Below, piece by piece: positions 4,575 to 13,758 of a DNA stretch of 13,758 nucleotides. Every line of letters starts with the position of its first letter. Within the stretch, counting starts at the first letter, position 1. The DNA comes from Oscillospiraceae bacterium (GTDB lineage Bacteria; Bacillota; Clostridia; Oscillospirales; Ruminococcaceae): positions 1-13,758 of the forward strand of contig CAADWC010000116.1 in NCBI GenBank assembly GCA_900752625.1. Reading direction: 5' to 3'. Made by a program: the position numbers and the translations under genes. Below the pieces are notes generated by a model. The model was not told the DNA's origin. It ran no database searches and saw nothing but the letters and a program-made list of their open reading frames with translations.

Positions 4575-4700
4575 ATGAGAAAATTCCTTAAAATATTCTT
4601 TCTGTGCCTACCGTTATTCATTTTTTCTGCTTGTGGAACCGGCAACCAGGAGTCGCTTGTAACATCAATATCCGAACTATCCTCTTCTGACGCGGAGCAA
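4575..4700 (+). pseudogene. 5' fragment of a lipoprotein gene, cut at a junction
   Basis: AGGAGG (4561-4566) and an ATG at 4575 start a clear lipoprotein: MRKFLKIFFLCLPLF, then lipobox FSAC (Cys20), then a Ser/Glu-rich linker to about residue 42 (SSSDAEQG). Past about 4700 the plus-strand frame becomes Arg-rich nonsense (RSRRRRLFHHRR), because the DNA from there on is the antisense of a calcium-repeat gene. The frame stops at 4791-4793, giving 72 residues, of which only about the first 42 belong to the original gene. It lies 18 bases after the flavodoxin gene, so the intact gene was probably the second member of that operon. Its function cannot be deduced because no domain remains. Confidence 0.75.
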
Positions 4701-6108
4701 GGGCGATCTCGTCGCCGTCGCTTATTCCATCATCGTCGGTATCGTACTTTAACGGATCTGTGCCGTAAATATTTACTTCATCGCCGTCCGTAAGTCCGTC
4801 GTTATCCGTATCGGGATTAAAAGGCTTTGTGCCGAGTTCAAACTCTCTGATATTGGAAAGTCCGTCACCGTCGCAATCTGCGTCGGCATCCGAAACTCCC
4901 TCCGTTACGGAATCATATACCAATGGGTCTGTACCGAGAATATAGTATTCCTGATAATCTGTCAAATCGTCGCCGTCGGTATCTTCATTATTAATATCTG
5001 TACCGATCTGTTCCTCAATAAAATCAGGCAGACCGTCTTCGTCGCTGTCAATAAATTTAGAGGAATAACCGTCCTGGTTTTTTTCAACATAGAATACGGG
5101 AGACTCCGCAGTCTGATCATCATTTGTTGTTTGGATAATCTTGAAATAGCGCTTATCAAACTCAGTAGTTATAGGGTAAGTATATGAATACTCATCTTCC
5201 AAAATTACAGTGGTAATGAAATCCTTGTTATTATAAGATTCAAGAAGTTCAAATCTGCCGTTTTCAATAGTTGTATACCAGAAAATGTTTAATGCGTTTT
5301 CTTCATTAAGATAATTTGCAAAGCCTGATACTGCAAGATTAATTTCAGGAATATCAATGGATGTAAAATCCTCGTTTACAGTAATTTCAGACATGATAAA
5401 ATTTGTCATTTCCGGAACTACCGCTGACTCCTTTGTTGCTTTAAAACCAAAAACCTTGCTTTCGCCTACTCCGATCGGAGTTGTTGTAATATCGTTTGCA
5501 ACCGTAAATGAATTCTCAAAGGAAGAAATAATCTGCGCATTCCAGATATCGTCTATAACAAAATTTGTATCAAAAGAAAGTCTCCAAGCCTCAAGTGGAT
5601 TTTCACCAAGATTTTTGATTGTAACTGTTCCGGTAAATCCGGTATCCCAGTCGTCGGTCACATCCATGGTTACAATGTAACCCTCTGCCGCTCTTTCCGT
5701 TCTCTGAGAACAAAGCTCGATTGTTTCAGGAAATTCCATATACTCGCCCGAAAGTGTGTAACCGAATCTTACTGACTGTTCCGGCTGAATCTCATAGTTA
5801 TATCCTACATTCTTTACAATATACTTTGTGGAATCGGAACTGTAAACAGTTCCGTTCCACAAGCCGTTTATTTCTCCATGTGCGTCATATTTCAATGCCC
5901 AGTTGAGAATATCTTCCGTTCCGGTATTTTTAATGGTAATCTCCACATTCTGATTACCAACCCAACTGCCCTTTATATCGTACGTAATTTCATAACCGTT
6001 TCCGGTATATGTTCGTGTTGTTCCTTCATCTGCAAATACGTTCATTGGAAAAATGAACGTTGTTGCGAATACAAGGCTTAGCAGTATTGAAATTATTCGT
6101 TTTTTCAT
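4618..6108 (-). CDS. Secreted tandem CBM2-like / calcium-repeat protein, 3' end replaced
   Basis: This is a secreted protein of 496 codons. It has a signal peptide (MKKRIISILLSLVFATTFIF, cleavage near VFA-DE at 26/27). Two CBM2-like beta domains follow: residues about 38-120 (SWVGNQNVEITIKNTG, WNGTVYSSD) and about 143-225 (DDWDTGFTGTVTIKNLGENP, WRLSFDTNFVIDDIWNAQI). An Fn3-like segment spans about 257-342. Calcium-binding type-3-like repeats run from 353 to 470 (DSDEDGLPD, DTDGDDLTD, DADCDGDGLSN, DTDNDGLTD, DTDDDGISD). It probably binds polysaccharide or acts as a surface adhesin. The last 26 residues (from APRQKR) are antisense of the neighbouring lipoprotein fragment, so the real C-terminus is lost at about 4700. 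The RBS AAAGGAGG overlaps the stop of the upstream gene (12-base gap), so the two form one operon. Confidence 0.82.
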   Translation of the reverse strand: MKKRIISILLSLVFATTFIFPMNVFADEGTTRTYTGNGYEITYDIKGSWVGNQNVEITIKNTGTEDILNWALKYDAHGEINGLWNGTVYSSDSTKYIVKNVGYNYEIQPEQSVRFGYTLSGEYMEFPETIELCSQRTERAAEGYIVTMDVTDDWDTGFTGTVTIKNLGENPLEAWRLSFDTNFVIDDIWNAQIISSFENSFTVANDITTTPIGVGESKVFGFKATKESAVVPEMTNFIMSEITVNEDFTSIDIPEINLAVSGFANYLNEENALNIFWYTTIENGRFELLESYNNKDFITTVILEDEYSYTYPITTEFDKRYFKIIQTTNDDQTAESPVFYVEKNQDGYSSKFIDSDEDGLPDFIEEQIGTDINNEDTDGDDLTDYQEYYILGTDPLVYDSVTEGVSDADADCDGDGLSNIREFELGTKPFNPDTDNDGLTDGDEVNIYGTDPLKYDTDDDGISDGDEIALAPRQKRIVRILMLQATPGCRFHKQKK

Positions 6109-6120
6109 GCTGTGCCTCCT

Positions 6121-8919
6121 TTATTGTAATGTGGCTTTATTATATGCCGAATAGTATCCTGTAATGCTTTCACCGGGTTTAAGTTCAATTTTATCCGATT
6201 CGCCCTCCTTTAAAAACGCAGAAAGGAATCTTTGAATTTTGCTTTTGTCTGCTTTTCCATTCTCCCAAGGTATTATTTCAACTATTCCATTAGGATATTT
6301 AACCGTCATCTCTTTTACATACATAAATTCGGAATATCCGCTGTAATTTACAGACGGATTATAAATTGTAATATCCGAAACATTGGTCAATTTGAAATCA
6401 ACCTGCCAGCAGTTATATTTATCGTCGTAATACTCCTGCTCAATAACCAGTTTCAATGCATCACCTCCGTAAACTTTAACAGGCTTATCGGTTTTAAACT
6501 GTGTGCTTACCTTTGTGTTAAACGGAGCGAGAATTCCGCTGAAATCTGCTAAAATATCGTATTCACCGGCGATATCGCCTCTCACTATCCAGCTTAATGT
6601 ACTTGATTCCCCGCCGTAAATTGTTCCCATACTCCTAGAAGCTGAATTGTCTGTATTTGTTTGAGCCAGCGACATTCCATCCGGAAGCGTTATCTTTGCG
6701 CTTGTATCGCCTATATAGAATTCATGCGAAGCGTTGTTCTGCACCGTAAGACTCACACTGAAAAACTCTTTAAGCCAGGTAAACGTAGTTGAAACATCGA
6801 GAAGAACTACAGACGGCGGTTCTCCGGGAACAGTTGCAGGAATCAGTCCAACATACGCAACATGATCCGTGTCCATATTTAAAATGCTGAATTTTACTCC
6901 GTTAAAATCAAACCATGTATCGGTATCTATCAGTTCTCCTTCGCCATTGACAGTGATATGAAAGGTTTTGGGATTGGCAGGATCGTCGGTCTTTATGTTG
7001 ACATTATAATTGTAAACATACTGATTTTCAGGCGCCGATGTGTCAATGCCCAGATTTTCTATTTCCTGAAGATCCAGCCTTTCTACGTCGATCTTGCCCG
7101 TTACAAGCTCGCCGTTTTCTATGTAAACCGTTGTCCATGAGCCGCCTTTTTGAACTGTAATATCCGCCGTTGCAGGCAGATAGCCGTCTTTATAGAAACT
7201 CATCTTATAAGTACCGAATGGCGCATATACTGTGGCAATTCCATTGGAATTTGAATTTACCAGCATTTCGCCGTCGGGAAGCTCCACATAAACCATAGCG
7301 TTGGCTACCGATCTTCCGCCGGAAGAATCGACAAGCTGAACGTTTGCATAACCATAGGTGGTGTCATCATGCACTGTTACCGATATTTCACTGCTTGAAG
7401 CATTACCCGCCGAATCCTTAACGGTAAGCTTCGCAGTATATACACCCTCATTTTCATATGTATGCGTCGCCTTAGCCGAATCTGCCGAATTGCCATCGCC
7501 AAAATCCCACTTATAGCTTGCAACATAGTGATTATCCGTCGAACCGGATCCGTCAAAGCTGATCGGTGTTCCTGCAAGTCCGTACAGGTCAATTCCGGCG
7601 TTTGCAACAGGTTTTATCGAATCCTCGTCTGTAGGAACAGCCATTACCTTTTCACTTGCAACTATATTATTATATTTGTCAACCGCCTCAACATAATAGA
7701 AATATGTCTTTCCCGCCTTAACGCTATTATCCGTATATTCGTTAAGAACCGTGCGTCCCACAAGTTCAAACGAACTGCTTTCCGACGAACGCTTATACAG
7801 ATTATAACCAAGAAGTGATTCGTCCGTAGTCGATGACCAGTTGAGTTTTATCTGCCAGCCTTTCTCAGTTGCAAAAAGCTTTGGGACGGTAATGGAGCAG
7901 CTCTTGTAGTCATAAGAGCAGGTGTAATACTCACTCTCGTTGCCGGATTTGTCCGTTACTTTTATTCGAACGTCATACATTCCGTCCGTCATATTATTCA
8001 TATCGAGATCAAACTTAACTATTTCCGCATACTCGGAAAGATTCTGAGTATACATGGTTTCCCACATTTCTGTTCCTGTCTGAGCAAATTCCACAAGAAT
8101 GCTTCCCAGTCTGAAATTATCCTTGCAGGAAATACTCATCGTTCTTCCGTTGCAGATTTTTGTACCGGTTTTGGGAACTACACTTAAGATCTGAGGATTT
8201 ACCGTATCTTCAGATATGCCGCCCGATACGATCTCCGACTTTTCACTTTCATTTCCAGCATAGTCTACAGCGGTAACATAATAATCGTACATTTCCGCAA
8301 ACTCTATATCCGTATCAAAATAGTTAAGAGCCTCGAGCTTGTCTTTCAGCAGAGTAAATGTCTCGTCTCCGCTGTATGCCTTGTATACTCTGAAGTAATT
8401 TATGTCGCTGTCTTCGGGATCATCCCAGCGGATTTCAAGCTGTCCGTTTACAACAGAGGTTTTTACATTAGTCAATGCATTAGGCGCTGTATTATCTACG
8501 GTATAGATAATTACAGGTGATAACTCAGCATCGCTTTGATTGTTTTTGCCGTCCAATGCTGTCGCTCTGACATAGAGTGAACCGTCCTTATATGCAGAAA
8601 TATCAAGGTCGTATTTTACAGACGTACTTGCGCTGCCGTTTGCCGTAATGCTGTCGACAGTTTTCCAAGCCTCTCCGTCTGTAGAAACTTCAACAGTTAT
8701 ACTTGCTACGGAAGCATTATCCTTTGCATAAACTGTCAGAGGAATTGACTGTGCAAAAGTATTGGCGTTCGGATAAATTCCGGTAATTGTCGGAGCTTCG
8801 GTATCTTCGCCTGTATAAACAGTTACCGTATTGCCCTTTTCAGAAACGTTGTTAGCCTTATCATATGCAATTACATACTGAGATGTTACGTTGGCACCAA
8901 ACTTTATATGTTTTCCTCT
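6121..8919 (-). pseudogene. Large surface protein with Ig/Fn3/PKD modules, 5'-truncated
   Basis: The frame is open for 932 codons from just inside a TAA at 8920-8922. No ATG occurs in the first 120 codons, and no signal peptide is present; a TTG at 8556 would cut through a domain and is not a credible start. Modules in order, numbered from the first open codon: Ig-like, about 1-135 (TVYAKDNASVASITVEVS); Fn3, about 146-230; Ig-like, 238-336; Fn3, 343-436 (GYNLYKRSS, YYVEAVDKYNN); PKD, 437-519 (YKWDFGDGNS, THTYENEGVYTAKLTVKD); carboxypeptidase-regulatory-like, 520-606 (GTYKMSFYKDGYLPA); then about 325 residues of unrecognised beta-rich sequence ending in a regular stop. There is no C-terminal anchor, sortase signal or dockerin. 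This is typical of large secreted adhesion or scaffold proteins of Ruminococcus-like bacteria. As it stands it probably cannot be made or exported. Confidence 0.8.
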
Positions 8920-8941
8920 TTAATAAATCAATATATATCAT

Positions 8942-8985
8942 AAAAAACGCAGAGCGGGCCGATTTTTTTCGGCACCGCCCTGTGT
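8942..8985 (-). terminator. Intrinsic terminator for the minus-strand genes
   Basis: On the minus strand a stem ACaCAGgGCGGtgCCGA pairs with TCGGcCCGCtCTGcGT across an A-rich loop and is followed by six T. It lies just after the stop of the small gene at 8995. It also marks the last DNA that clearly belongs to the right-hand block, before the truncated surface-protein gene begins at about 8920. Confidence 0.8.
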
Positions 8986-8994
8986 CTTTGCAAA

Positions 8995-9231
8995 TTATTT
9001 TTTCATGTTTTTATCTGCACGAAAAATAAGTTCTTTATCCTGTAACATAGTTTCCACAGAATACAACGCCATAGATGGAGTTTTCCCCTGTTTCACCACC
9101 GAAGCAACCAAAAGCTTTGTCAACATACGTGATATTCCGGTTTCTTCCATCAATTTCAGCGCCTGTTCCAATGTCTGCCCGGAGAATCCTGCCTGTTCCA
9201 ATTTTTTGCGTTCTTTTTTGAAATCATTCAT
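8995..9231 (-). CDS. Small hypothetical protein, helical
   Basis: This is a 78-residue cytoplasmic protein of unknown function. The ATG at 9231 (MNDFKKERKKLEQAGFSG) is preferred because GGGA lies 7 bases upstream; an ATG 21 bases earlier (MLFWEYD) has no ribosome site. The composition is basic and predicts helices (LEQALKLMEETGISRMLTKLLVASVV), with no signal peptide, Cys motif or membrane segment. I recognise no family. It sits between a KTR gene remnant upstream and its own terminator downstream, so it may be cargo of the same decayed mobile element. That placement is an inference. Confidence 0.55.
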   Translation of the reverse strand: MNDFKKERKKLEQAGFSGQTLEQALKLMEETGISRMLTKLLVASVVKQGKTPSMALYSVETMLQDKELIFRADKNMKK

Positions 9232-9269
9232 ATCATATTCCCAAAACAACATCAGCTTGTTCGTCTGGT

Positions 9270-9384
9270 AGATGCGTGCTGCTCATTCAGGCAGAACAAT
9301 AGAAGTTTTCAATCGCTGTACCTTTTCTAAGCTTTAAACGGTTTTACTCTTGCAGATCGGACAAAGTACCCATTCGCTTTTTAT
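9270..9384 (-). pseudogene. Frameshifted cysteine-rich KTR protein remnant
   Basis: On the minus strand the codons after 9381 read KSEWVLCPICKSKT, the hallmark N-terminus of the cysteine-rich KTR family (Cys_rich_KTR), which is common near the ends of conjugative transposons in Firmicutes. The start position holds ATA in place of ATG. After KSKT the frame hits GTT TAA; a one-base shift restores RLKLRKGTAIENF, and a second shift is needed near TTCTGCC, where the second Cys pair should lie. At least three lesions are therefore visible. The 3' limit is approximate. KTR function is unknown; the paired CPxC motifs suggest zinc binding. Confidence 0.65.
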
Positions 9385-9556
9385 ACGCTCTTTCGATGTT
9401 ATTACAAAGCCCCCTCAAATCTTGCGCCAACTTCTTTCAGCCACTCTCGGATGGGAAAACGCTGTGTACGTATCTTCTACATCACCCATGCTCGATACAG
9501 CCGCTCACTTTTCCAAACTATTTCGATGCTTTGAAACGGGTTCCGCTTTTGGCAAG
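9385..9556 (-). other. Non-coding or decayed stretch between telA and the KTR remnant
   Basis: No intact gene is visible. On the minus strand short coding-like pieces appear in shifting frames: FPIREWLKEVGARFEGAL then stop (9402-9458), and an upstream piece with SERLYRAWVM before a stop. A different frame reads KKLAQDLRGLCNNIERAYKK across the KTR start. This fits a gene decayed by frameshifts next to the KTR remnant, probably from the same mobile element. No strong terminator is visible directly after the telA stop. Confidence 0.35.
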
Positions 9557-10696
9557 TTATCGATTTTGCACGGCTGACAGCATGGTTTGCTTGAGCCGCT
9601 CTTCAATTCCTGCTAACTCTACTTCCGCATTCTGACGGGCGGCGCGGCCCTCCTGCTGGATTTTGATGGTTTCTTCTATGGTGGAAATCAAATCAGCGTT
9701 GACCTTTTTCAGCGTTTCCAGATCCACGATGCCGCGTTCGGATTCTTTGGCTACATCCACGCTGTTCTGCTTCAGCAGTTCCGCGTTTTTGGTGAGCAGC
9801 GTATTGGTGGCGTCGGTTACGCTCCTCTGCATCTGCAACACGGTTTCCTGCCGGTGCAGACCCAGGGCAATGACAACCTGGCTTTTCCAAAGCGGGATGG
9901 TGCTGAGCACGGCCGTCTGGATCTTATCCACCAGCATTTTGTCGTTGTTCTGGATCAGGCGGATCTGCGGCGCCGTCTGGATGGCAATGGTCTTGCTGAG
10001 TTTCAGGTCGTGGATTTTCTTTTCAAAACGGTTCACCGTATCTTCAAAGTCCCGCACCGCCTGGGCGCTCATGGGATCGCCTTTGGCTGATGCCTCCGCA
10101 TGGAGCTTTGGAAGGGTGGTTTCCCGCAATTCCTTCAACTTTTCCTCGCCGGCGGCAATATAGATCTGCAGCTCCTGGAAATATTCAAGATTCTTTTCAT
10201 ACAGCCCGTCGAACATGGTGACGTCCTTGAGCATCTGCATCCGCGCCTGTTCCAGTTCCTGCTCGATGCGGTCGATCTGTACCTCAAGCTTTTCATACCG
10301 CTGCATAAATTTTTTGATTGCACGGGAGGCGTTCTTCAGAAAAGGGATTTTGTCTAAAATGCCGTCGTCCAACTGGTCGACGCCTACATCCTTGACCTTC
10401 AAAACCAATTCCGACATCAGTTCCCCCACATAGCCGCTGTCCTTGCTGCGCACCTGCGCCAGGATATTGTCGGAAAAGCTGGAAATATTCCGCTGCGCTC
10501 CAATGCCGTACTGAAGCGCAGTCTGGGAATCCATCAGGTCGATGCTGTTTTTTAACTCTTCTACCCGCGCTCTCTGCGCCGGGGTCAATTCTTCTACCTG
10601 GGCGCGGACCGTCTCCACATCCACCGGCTCCTGTTTTTGCAGGGCGGTATTCTCTTTTCCCTGCATTAAAGTGTCCAAAGTGATTTCTTCTGCCAT
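9557..10696 (-). CDS. telA: TelA-family toxic anion resistance protein
   Basis: This 379-residue cytoplasmic protein belongs to the TelA family (toxic anion resistance; Bacillus YaaN type), and its length is normal for the family. The N-terminal part is charged and helical. Long coiled-coil segments lie at about 130-235 (RYEKLEVQIDRIEQELEQAR, FEKKIHDLKLSK). The family signature follows at 239-276: IQTAPQIRLIQNNDKMLVDK, then STIPLWKSQVVIAL. The C-terminus is again a long coiled coil ending at VQNR. A GGAAGG site lies 12 bases before the ATG, and the upstream gene stops 26 bases away, so it is the last gene of the operon. TelA proteins are linked to tellurite, peptide-antibiotic and envelope stress resistance, but their biochemical activity is not settled. 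The pairing with XpaC is classical. Confidence 0.92.
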   Translation of the reverse strand: MAEEITLDTLMQGKENTALQKQEPVDVETVRAQVEELTPAQRARVEELKNSIDLMDSQTALQYGIGAQRNISSFSDNILAQVRSKDSGYVGELMSELVLKVKDVGVDQLDDGILDKIPFLKNASRAIKKFMQRYEKLEVQIDRIEQELEQARMQMLKDVTMFDGLYEKNLEYFQELQIYIAAGEEKLKELRETTLPKLHAEASAKGDPMSAQAVRDFEDTVNRFEKKIHDLKLSKTIAIQTAPQIRLIQNNDKMLVDKIQTAVLSTIPLWKSQVVIALGLHRQETVLQMQRSVTDATNTLLTKNAELLKQNSVDVAKESERGIVDLETLKKVNADLISTIEETIKIQQEGRAARQNAEVELAGIEERLKQTMLSAVQNR

Positions 10697-10722
10697 ATCC
10701 TATTCATTCCTTCCTGCACTCT

Positions 10723-11778
10723 CTATGAGAGGGCCTTGATAATCCGATCCATGGTGGTGGCGTCGGGCATCGGCGCCACCTGGGTCAGTTCCTCTGCAAT
10801 ACCGGACACGCCGAAATGCTCTGCATCCGTTGGGGTGTCGTACACCCCTGTGCGGAACCCGTGCTTTTCCCAGGCAAGCCGCTGGATGTCCTCATCCAGC
10901 AGCGCATCAATCCCGGCGGTCCCCGCCTCGTCCAGCGCAATATACACATGGGAGGACCAGACAGTAGGCGTCGGGTACATCATCACGATATCCTCTTTTA
11001 TCTGTTCCCAGGTATCCGGGTTCTCCGCCGCAAATTCCAGCAGCTGGTTTTCATAGCCGGCGATCAGGGGCTTGGCGCCCATGCCGGTTTTCAGGAACTG
11101 GTCGAACAGGTCAGAGGACGAGCTTTCCATATACCCCAGCTTCTGAAAGATGCTTTGAAGCCGGGGCAGGATTTCATCCAGATTGCTTTCGTCTGCCACG
11201 CCGCCGCAGAGGGTGTTGGCCAAAAGGCCGGCGAACATATTGCCGGAATTGGATTTAGTGGGATCGGTGGTGCCCACAGTGATGCTGCCGTAAAGCTGGG
11301 GAAGGCCGATATCCGCCCAAGCTGTCCCAGCTTCAATAGCCTCGGTCAGTTTGACCATATTTACTGTATACACGCCGTCGGTCTGCGAGGCGATTCCGCT
11401 GTCAACCAGCGCCTGCGCTACGGCACTGCGGGTATACAGGACAATGGGCGTATTCAGGATAATTTCGCTCTTCACCGGGTCGCCGTTGACCTGCTTATAC
11501 AACTCCAGCGCCGTCTGGTTGGAAGGAAACAGGAAGTCCCGCCCTGTAGCGTCAGCGGTGATCATGTCGATGGAACCGGCTTTCGCATAGTCGATGACCA
11601 GCTTGTACCTGTCCCGCAGGATGTCCTGTACTTCCTCGTCTTCCAGCAGGCCGATTTTTTCGCCGCCCACATAACCGTTGATTTCGGCAACAGTCTGATT
11701 GTTGCTTATGAACACATAGGCGACAGCAGCTATGATAACGGCCGCTAAAATACCTAAACCAATAAGTTTTGTCTTCAT
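10723..11778 (-). CDS. Membrane-anchored solute-binding-like protein of the TelA operon
   Basis: This 351-residue protein has one N-terminal membrane segment (about 5-25) and no lipobox, so it is probably anchored with its domain outside. The body resembles periplasmic-binding type II proteins: a GGEK segment at 38-41, TPIVLYTRSAVAQAL (110-124) in the first hinge region, TDPTKSNSGNMFAG (171-184) as the probable ligand loop, GYENQLLEF (241-249) and YPTPTVWSSHVYIALD (268-283). It shares this motif order with the N-terminal half of the vWA fusion two genes upstream, so the two are paralogous. GGAGGG lies just upstream of the ATG, and its ATGA overlaps the xpaC stop by 4 bases. The ligand is unknown; an oxyanion is possible given TelA, but that is inference. 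Confidence 0.75.
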   Translation of the reverse strand: MKTKLIGLGILAAVIIAAVAYVFISNNQTVAEINGYVGGEKIGLLEDEEVQDILRDRYKLVIDYAKAGSIDMITADATGRDFLFPSNQTALELYKQVNGDPVKSEIILNTPIVLYTRSAVAQALVDSGIASQTDGVYTVNMVKLTEAIEAGTAWADIGLPQLYGSITVGTTDPTKSNSGNMFAGLLANTLCGGVADESNLDEILPRLQSIFQKLGYMESSSSDLFDQFLKTGMGAKPLIAGYENQLLEFAAENPDTWEQIKEDIVMMYPTPTVWSSHVYIALDEAGTAGIDALLDEDIQRLAWEKHGFRTGVYDTPTDAEHFGVSGIAEELTQVAPMPDATTMDRIIKALS

Positions 11779-12383
11779 TTCCCGCCCTCCATTTTCAAAG
11801 TGCTCTTCAAAAGTTCAATATCCGCCTCTACGTCCAGCAGTTCCCCCTGCATTAGATGGGTAAACTGCTTCTCAAAGGCTTTGTTCAGCACCGGCAGGGA
11901 TTCGGCGGTTTTACAAAGGATTTCCATAACCTCCTCCGAATGGAGTCCCGTATTTTGAAAATCCACATAACGTGCCAAAAGCTTGGCAGCCGTATCCAGG
12001 TAATAGGTAAAGAAACGGCGTGCAAGCTTGATTTTGTCCGGGTTTTCCTTGAGATAAGCAAGGATTCTTGTCCCGGTGGCGTACAAAGCCTGCGCATTAT
12101 GTTGCACGGCAGGATCCGCGATGGCCTTCACCGCTTTGTCAATGTCCGCCAGGTCTGCCTGGGCATCATCCAGAAGCTTCTGGATCTCCTCGCCGCCGGG
12201 CATGAATTCCACATCAATCCCCGCAATTTTCCGGCTGGGCTTAAGCAGGAAGAACAACCCGAAGTATATGCCGACGCAAAGCAGGATACAGACAATCAGG
12301 TTCCAGTGGAGGAATAGGAATAATAATAAAAACAGGACAGCCGCAATCAGGGTGGAAACTGTCATTCGCGGGGTATCTTTCAT
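11775..12383 (-). CDS. xpaC: XpaC-family membrane protein
   Basis: This 202-residue protein has two adjacent N-terminal membrane segments (about 9-25 and 29-47, joined by a very short turn) and a helical cytoplasmic domain (about 60-195) with LLDDAQADLADIDKAVKAI and YYLDTAAKLLARYVDFQNTG. The topology and sequence match the XpaC family, named for 5-bromo-4-chloroindolyl phosphate hydrolysis in Bacillus, although enzymatic activity is doubtful and no catalytic motif is seen. In Bacillus xpaC lies next to the telA homologue yaaN, which supports the call here. Its ATG overlaps the stop of the upstream vWA gene by one base (TGATG), and its stop overlaps the next start by 4 bases, which indicates translational coupling and possibly fixed stoichiometry. 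Confidence 0.85.
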   Translation of the reverse strand: MKDTPRMTVSTLIAAVLFLLLFLFLHWNLIVCILLCVGIYFGLFFLLKPSRKIAGIDVEFMPGGEEIQKLLDDAQADLADIDKAVKAIADPAVQHNAQALYATGTRILAYLKENPDKIKLARRFFTYYLDTAAKLLARYVDFQNTGLHSEEVMEILCKTAESLPVLNKAFEKQFTHLMQGELLDVEADIELLKSTLKMEGGK

Positions 12384-13758
12384 CAGTTATACCCCTTTAC
12401 GCTCCGGAAAGCCTCCGTCAGGTTCTCCCGGCCGTCGAATACCCGGGCATTGGTATACTGCGCCAATTCCTCCAGCTGGGTTTCGTCGGCATCCCCGAAC
12501 ATGATGGAAAAGACCGGAACCTCGGTCCCAAGTTCCTCATAAGCGTCCTCAAAATCATAAAGGGAACCGCCGGACTGCCCGTCGGTCAGCAGGATAATAG
12601 CGGGAGTATACTGGGATAGATCGTATTCCTTAAGCATTTCGATTCCCCGCACAGCAGCCGTGTACATATCTGTACCGCCGCCTACCTCCTGATTTTTCAC
12701 TTTATCATAGAGCGCCTCCAGTTCGCCGCCGTTGCCTTCCGCCGTATAGGTATTGATTACGCCGTCGTTAAAAGGAATCAGGATGTTTACTTCATTTTCC
12801 GATGCCTGTAGGAAATTTTTCTGGGCGTTCTCCTGAATCAGCAACTGCTCCATTGCCTGGACCAGCTGTTCGTTGCCTGTACCGCTCATGCTGCCGGAGT
12901 AATCCAGACAGTACACGGTAAGAGAAGGCTTGCGGAAATCGGTTTGATATAAGTTCAGGCACTCAAACAGAACATCGGAAGCCGGCATTTTGATCGGCGA
13001 CAGCACCCGGTCGGGCTGCAGGCCCCAGTCGGAGCGAAATACTTCCTTGTTTTCCTCGGAAACGCCGATATAGCCCGAACGGCGGCCGGTGCGCTGGATC
13101 TCATCCTGCGTGTCCTCCGACAGCAGATATTCCTGCAGCTTCAAAAACAACTCTTCCTGCTTATCGTCGCCTTTATCCACATATCCCAGCGGGGAATCTG
13201 CAATAGACAGCCCGTCATAGGGATATACCGCATACAGCGGCTCTTCTCCGCGCGCCTCCAGTTCTTTGTTGGCCTGGATAATCAGGCACTCGTAGTTGAC
13301 CATGGCGTCGTAATTGCCTTCCAAAAACATATCCTTGAGCCAGTCGGAGCTGCCGGAGGAACGGTCCACACCCGAAAGCAGTTCCTTCATCTGGGTTTTC
13401 AGGCTTTCATTCTGCAAATCCTCTTCTGTGATGACCTCCGGGTTACCCAGAAGGGCGTACAGAAAACCGATGTACGCGCTGGCGCCGGAATTTGACTGGG
13501 TAGCGCTGGTCATGCAGAAGCGGAGTTCCCCGCTTTGGATCGCCTGAAGCAGGTCGTTGACCGATACTTCGCACCCTACAAACCCCAGCTCCTCCGCCAG
13601 GCTTTTGCGGATGCCGAATACCACCGGCGTGATGGATATCGACTCAGCGTGCTTGACCCGGTGCTCCGTATCTCCTACCGTCAGCCACAGGCTGCTGGCC
13701 GGCCCCCCGGCGTCATAGGGGGTTTTCTCTTCTCCCCGCAGGCGGCAGGTTTTCCGAG
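12383..13758 (-). CDS. Solute-binding / vWA domain fusion, N-terminus beyond window
   Basis: The frame is open to the window edge (458 codons, first complete codon at 13756), so the N-terminus is missing; the GTG at 13624 is internal. The first part is a solute-binding-like domain: TPVVFGIRKSLAEELG, then CMTSATQSNSGASAYIGFL, NYDAMVNYE, YPYDGLSIADSPLGYVD and RRSGYIGV. The second part is a von Willebrand factor A domain with a complete MIDAS metal site: DYSGSMSG, the Thr of GGGTDMYTA, and the Asp of LLTDGQSGG. It ends at GYN. vWA/MIDAS domains bind protein partners through Mg2+ or Mn2+. As first visible gene of the vWA-xpaC-sbp-telA operon, it probably presents or senses a ligand together with the paralogous anchored protein. 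Its exported location is assumed, since the signal region is off the window. Confidence 0.85.
   Translation of the reverse strand, partial: RKTCRLRGEEKTPYDAGGPASSLWLTVGDTEHRVKHAESISITPVVFGIRKSLAEELGFVGCEVSVNDLLQAIQSGELRFCMTSATQSNSGASAYIGFLYALLGNPEVITEEDLQNESLKTQMKELLSGVDRSSGSSDWLKDMFLEGNYDAMVNYECLIIQANKELEARGEEPLYAVYPYDGLSIADSPLGYVDKGDDKQEELFLKLQEYLLSEDTQDEIQRTGRRSGYIGVSEENKEVFRSDWGLQPDRVLSPIKMPASDVLFECLNLYQTDFRKPSLTVYCLDYSGSMSGTGNEQLVQAMEQLLIQENAQKNFLQASENEVNILIPFNDGVINTYTAEGNGGELEALYDKVKNQEVGGGTDMYTAAVRGIEMLKEYDLSQYTPAIILLTDGQSGGSLYDFEDAYEELGTEVPVFSIMFGDADETQLEELAQYTNARVFDGRENLTEAFRSVKGYN

Follow-up and report, generated by a model that had tools for sequence, protein, structure and literature searches.

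The window, by which we mean the whole 13,758-nucleotide stretch of DNA analysed, contains four adjacent genes encoding a fusion of a solute-binding protein (SBP) with a vWA domain, the membrane protein XpaC, a second solute-binding protein (SBP2), and TelA. This set is a real module, conserved as a unit and, among TelA/XpaC systems, a rare variant. Its parts belong to known families, and we call the set a new form of that system; we found no description of the four genes together in the open-licence literature, where an earlier mention of SBP/vWA genes with TelA is nonetheless possible. The clustering of two outward-facing binding proteins with two membrane-stress proteins, seen in certain gut bacteria and in a small number of distant relatives, suggests a small sensing-and-protection machine.

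The operon, its products, and its surroundings

All four genes lie on the minus strand, and the ORF coordinates confirm the layout first read from the DNA: the fusion and XpaC genes overlap by 1 base, those for XpaC and SBP2 overlap by 4 bases, and SBP2 and TelA are 26 bases apart. The original domain calls were likewise upheld, by Pfam for TelA, XpaC, and the SBP/vWA fusion, and by structure prediction for SBP2. TelA (PF05816; 9557..10696, minus strand) is full length (4.7e-118; 394.5 bits, the cut-off being 30; profile positions 1-331 of 332) and has no predicted membrane segment, a hydrophobicity scan having found no hydrophobic stretch. XpaC (PF10112; 11775..12383, minus strand) matches profile positions 4-190 of 191 (1e-24, 88 bits against a cut-off of 29.8); its helical domain is preceded by an N-terminal hydrophobic stretch that, judged by eye, covers approximately residues 9-47, peaks at residues 29-47, and is long enough for a hairpin. 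Searches by sequence found no solved-structure relative of TelA or XpaC.

The fusion, a probable lipoprotein with a type II SBP domain (12383..13756, minus strand), is open at the window end, such that ∼82 N-terminal residues including the lipobox lie beyond it. Pfam recognizes SBP_bac_11 (1.3e-7) and VWA (4.8e-9) in the part within the window, and SBP_bac_11 at 4e-16 in the closest relative, the full-length 535-aa protein of locus L001 (L001:5789-7393), at about residue 83 of which the window match begins. DNA homology to L001 ends 14 bases short of the window end, leaving 13745-13758 unmatched; nearby codons depart from residues that are invariant elsewhere, which fits errors at a contig end. 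An alignment of 39 sequences shows the MIDAS residues D363/S365/S367/T440/D470 and C24 to be invariant; the vWA domain thus has the DxSxS, T, and D residues of a MIDAS, and a strict GGGT pattern matches 29/33 locus proteins. An AlphaFold model of the L001 fusion (pLDDT 85.6, pTM 0.81) adopts the type II SBP fold, with its best Foldseek match being 6lkg, an SBP from a two-component sensor that we take to be HptA.

SBP2 (10723..11778, minus strand), which is N-terminally anchored, matched no Pfam family at E 0.1, SBP_bac_11 (PF13531) included, and its sequence profiles produced a single chance match among solved structures. Its predicted structure (pLDDT 90.0, pTM 0.84) is that of a two-lobed type II SBP, as is that of the fusion. 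The two SBPs are paralogous (hhalign E 3e-12) and share the motifs GSE(K/N), GSxD, TPxV, SNSG, and YE; comparison of predicted structures places the binding folds nearest to oxyanion and ferric binders.

Outside the module, a junction at 8900..9500 recognized from GC content and DNA homology separates the GC-rich module (53.6%) from an AT-rich flank (40.1%), with homology to L001 ending near 9475 on the flank side. An FN3/PKD gene on the minus strand keeps its reading frame no further back than ∼8900 and carries a frameshift near 8556. Minus-strand frame fragments with a CPIC motif at 9260-9440 resemble a decayed Cys-rich KTR small protein. Window positions 4618-8556 encode two adjacent secreted surface proteins, with PKD/FN3-type repeats and with CBM_2 and TSP3 repeats. 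The DNA downstream of TelA (8557-9556) gave no plasmid match.

Copies of the module from four genera (L004, L005, L006, and L032) are 98.2-99.6% identical in DNA over 3.7-5.7 kb; mis-binning may lie behind this near-identity, and two of the four records are not marked as metagenome-assembled. A large serine recombinase is encoded near the L005 module (L005:3-1487), and the same ORF cluster is present in L006 and L032. Carriage by phages was rejected, since 50,697 phage records held no SBP2 relative and none was confirmed in viral contigs. Membership in known anti-phage defence was also rejected, there being no PADLOC match at E 0.1 for TelA, SBP2, XpaC, or the L001 fusion.

Conservation in Clostridia and association with TelA

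Searching the genome collection once with SBP2 as query retrieved 38 loci, all in Clostridia-type genomes. The vWA fusion, XpaC, and SBP2 genes adjoin in that order at all 37 with upstream DNA, a count that leaves aside L002, where the upstream DNA is only 43 bases; in L031 the match to the fusion is split in two and lacks its central part, and in L026 the contig ends within the fusion. An order kept in 37/37 related loci is an operon arrangement and not chance, and spacing is the same as in the window for vWA/XpaC in 27/37 and for XpaC/SBP2 in 21/37. TelA comes next after SBP2 in 25 of the 38 loci and is absent there in 10, each of which extends over 2.7 kb further downstream; the other three (L013, L032, and L038) stop at a contig edge after SBP2. 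Among 480 ORFs from the 38 loci we found no conserved flanking gene, the largest non-module clusters having 5 members. A permease or ATPase such as would mark an ABC importer was found neither in the window nor, by ORF clustering, as a conserved neighbour in these loci, and to that extent the original remark that none is present holds.

A census across the phylum shows how unusual the solute-binding genes are. Of 299 genomes drawn from it, 32 have TelA above cut-off and 2, one of them the seed, have SBP2 by profile. XpaC adjoins TelA in 21 of 36 sampled loci (all the other TelA loci above cut-off), in agreement with the stated pairing of the two families, and SBP2 is present at 1 of these 21, a locus that ends inside XpaC. 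The outcome named beforehand as refuting, solute-binding genes missing from most TelA/XpaC loci, is thus what the census shows, and the view of these genes as a general TelA/XpaC feature is not borne out; rather, they are a specialised arm that a minority of such systems carry. The converse does hold, SBP2 being accompanied by XpaC and the fusion, and the proposal that the four genes are a unit was strengthened by their conservation in Clostridia and their recurrence in other phyla.

A full TelA was found in all 35 module genomes searched (10/10 and 25/25, taking in the genomes of 35 of the 38 module loci), as compared to the 32/299 of the phylum. Within one family of 120 genomes, 61 have TelA and 9 have SBP2 (one only as fragments), and TelA is present in 9/9 SBP2 genomes versus 52/111 others (Fisher p 0.0029). 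Where the linked TelA is absent, incomplete, or diverged, a full TelA lies elsewhere in the genome in 12/12 cases, as compared to a second full TelA in 9 of the 23 genomes with an intact linked copy (Fisher p 0.0006; 0.002 if L009 and L023 are counted as intact, and 0.0009 with a 43-aa fragment counted). In genomes without a linked TelA, the other TelA has XpaC beside it (L082-L092). The SBP2 tree implies at least 6 changes in linked-TelA state, of which only 2 independent pairs fall on starred branches, both consistent with the pattern and not significant, so that relatedness can explain much of it. An incomplete or strongly diverged linked TelA accompanied by another full TelA was seen at L009, at L023, and on contig C17 of genome G378.

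Relatives in other phyla and known systems

Through tblastn against plasmid records we retrieved 8 records, representing 5 genera, with SBP2 relatives at 22-29% identity, and we examined one locus per genus. The order is SBP2-TelA-fusion-small membrane protein in Sphaerotilus, Variovorax, and Nonomuraea, and SBP2-fusion-small membrane protein in Deinococcus, where a search of the plasmid bearing the locus found no TelA; the Streptomyces SBP2 is solitary, with neither TelA nor the fusion on its replicon. Thus, 4/5 non-Clostridia loci combine SBP2 with the fusion and a small membrane protein, and 3 of these 4 also have TelA; the gene order is a permuted version of the one seen in Clostridia. The Burkholderiales, Deinococcus, and Nonomuraea loci accordingly resemble the window in these shared genes, and differ from it in their permuted order, in the low identity of SBP2, and in a small membrane protein that is not recognisably XpaC. 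We tried and rejected these small proteins as XpaC (hhalign probability 2.3-2.5%, P ∼0.02), so that only position and architecture are common. NCBI annotates the Variovorax fusion as a ‘substrate-binding and VWA domain-containing protein’, and the Sphaerotilus small membrane protein gave one weak PADLOC match (0.017). At three further loci a diverged SBP/vWA fusion directly adjoins a distant TelA (L075:4198-5892, L076:7280-8968, and L077:7153-8847); SBP_bac_11 and VWA were confirmed for the fusions of L075 and L076, no SBP2 or XpaC match was found at any of the three, and they are perhaps a second SBP/vWA-TelA lineage.

The canonical XpaC-TelA pairs, described in the literature as B. subtilis xpaC-yaaN, Listeria lmo1966-lmo1967, and L. 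lactis llmg_1115-1116, have the same two families in the same relative order as the window. They are adjacent there, with no SBP2 at 20/21 sampled loci, whereas the window has SBP2 between XpaC and TelA and the fusion upstream. Published work assigns xpaC/telA pairs to the sigma-W regulon, reports that they rise on CesSR-type stress and that xpaC rises in a liaR mutant, describes responses to membrane-protein overload and wall-active peptides, and, citing Collins 2010, gives for an lmo1967 mutant of Listeria a 4-fold increase in sensitivity to nisin and a 2-fold increase for tellurite. The literature thus supports the stated tie between TelA/XpaC and envelope stress.

Two other systems invite comparison. 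In Ter stress systems (TerB/C/D/F, TelA, and TerY-P), TelA and a vWA protein have been proposed to form submembrane structures (PMC7824862). The module shares that combination, but its vWA domain lies outside the cytoplasm as part of an SBP fusion; Pfam found no TerB, TerC, TerD, kinase, or phosphatase among 10 window proteins, and no Ter partner recurs as a conserved locus neighbour, which sets the module apart from that class. HptA (PMC8774646) binds a ligand and relays the signal to a partner in the membrane, and the HptASR system of Staphylococcus aureus is similar in using an SBP for sensing and not import and in its fold match to the fusion. Unlike HptASR, the module has neither a histidine kinase, none being found among the window proteins scanned, nor a response regulator; it is therefore not a two-component sensor of that type, and TelA/XpaC would be its output.

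A candidate receptor arm and competing readings

We tentatively favour, as a reading somewhat short of probable, an SBP receptor arm that would act through XpaC on TelA to raise tolerance of envelope damage. Two paralogous outward-facing type II SBPs, one lipid-anchored with its vWA domain and the other anchored by a transmembrane segment, would bind a small ligand outside the cell, probably anionic or metal-bearing. Ligand binding and a metal-dependent vWA contact might then alter the packing of the SBPs against XpaC in the membrane, and XpaC would pass the change to cytosolic TelA; working at the cytoplasmic side of the membrane, TelA would confer the tolerance. We infer that the four proteins form one physical complex. 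This reading is favoured because of the envelope-stress links of xpaC/telA and the sensing precedent of HptA, the latter together with 6lkg as top match of the fusion, and we count for it the operon unit, its permuted recurrence, the folds and paralogy of the SBPs, the invariant MIDAS, the lack of a conserved transporter neighbour in 38 loci, and the full TelA in every module genome searched. Counted against it are the few independent changes behind the TelA correlation, the solitary Streptomyces SBP2, the Deinococcus plasmid without TelA, the lack of a sure XpaC homologue in other phyla (hhalign P 0.019), and the absence from the module of a histidine kinase or any other recognised output.

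We rank the receptor arm above four alternatives, two of which we regard as unlikely to the same degree. The SBPs could simply sequester a compound such as a toxic anion, metal complex, or antimicrobial on the outer side of the membrane and so shield its target, with XpaC/TelA as an anchor and no signalling; their closeness in fold to oxyanion and ferric binders, the naming of the TelA family for toxic anions, and the lack of a transporter at the loci would all suit this, yet it leaves the MIDAS domain and the constant link to cytosolic TelA unexplained, and one binding site per protein makes a poor sink. The module could instead be a scaffold for envelope assembly or repair, organising envelope proteins without sensing while its SBP-like domains hold a wall precursor, lipid head group, peptide, or metal. 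Binding of partner proteins is common among vWA domains, and this habit is consistent with a scaffold, though the conserved pockets of both SBPs point to reversible binding of a small ligand. The response of XpaC/TelA to membrane-protein overload and wall-active peptides points the same way as the vWA habit.

Import, in which the SBPs would pass substrate to an ABC permease whose gene lies elsewhere, we consider very improbable: the SBPs do have the fold of ABC-linked proteins, and in L004 an unrelated SBP_bac_6 gene follows 2.4 kb downstream, but no permease or ATPase neighbour is conserved in the 38 loci, where non-module clusters reach at most 5. Slightly less credible still is that the genes are passenger cargo, co-carried on mobile elements without joint function. 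The near-identical copies in four genera, the serine recombinase beside them, and the jump in GC in the window are what such carriage would leave, but the unit is kept in 37/37 loci despite varied flanks, and it is re-formed by permutation in other phyla with SBP2 only 22-29% identical.

A bolder form of the receptor arm, possible but doubtful in our view, would make the module an undescribed receptor class, in which a paralogous SBP pair, one member bearing a MIDAS vWA domain, gates a cytosolic TelA scaffold through XpaC. TelA would then be a ligand-controlled membrane-protection machine, and the canonical XpaC-TelA pair would be the same machine without the receptor, able to supply TelA in trans. 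The conserved extracytoplasmic ligand-binding pair offers a handle on TelA, as finding its ligand would let one ask what switches TelA on, and it counsels against taking TelA in these genomes for tellurite resistance.
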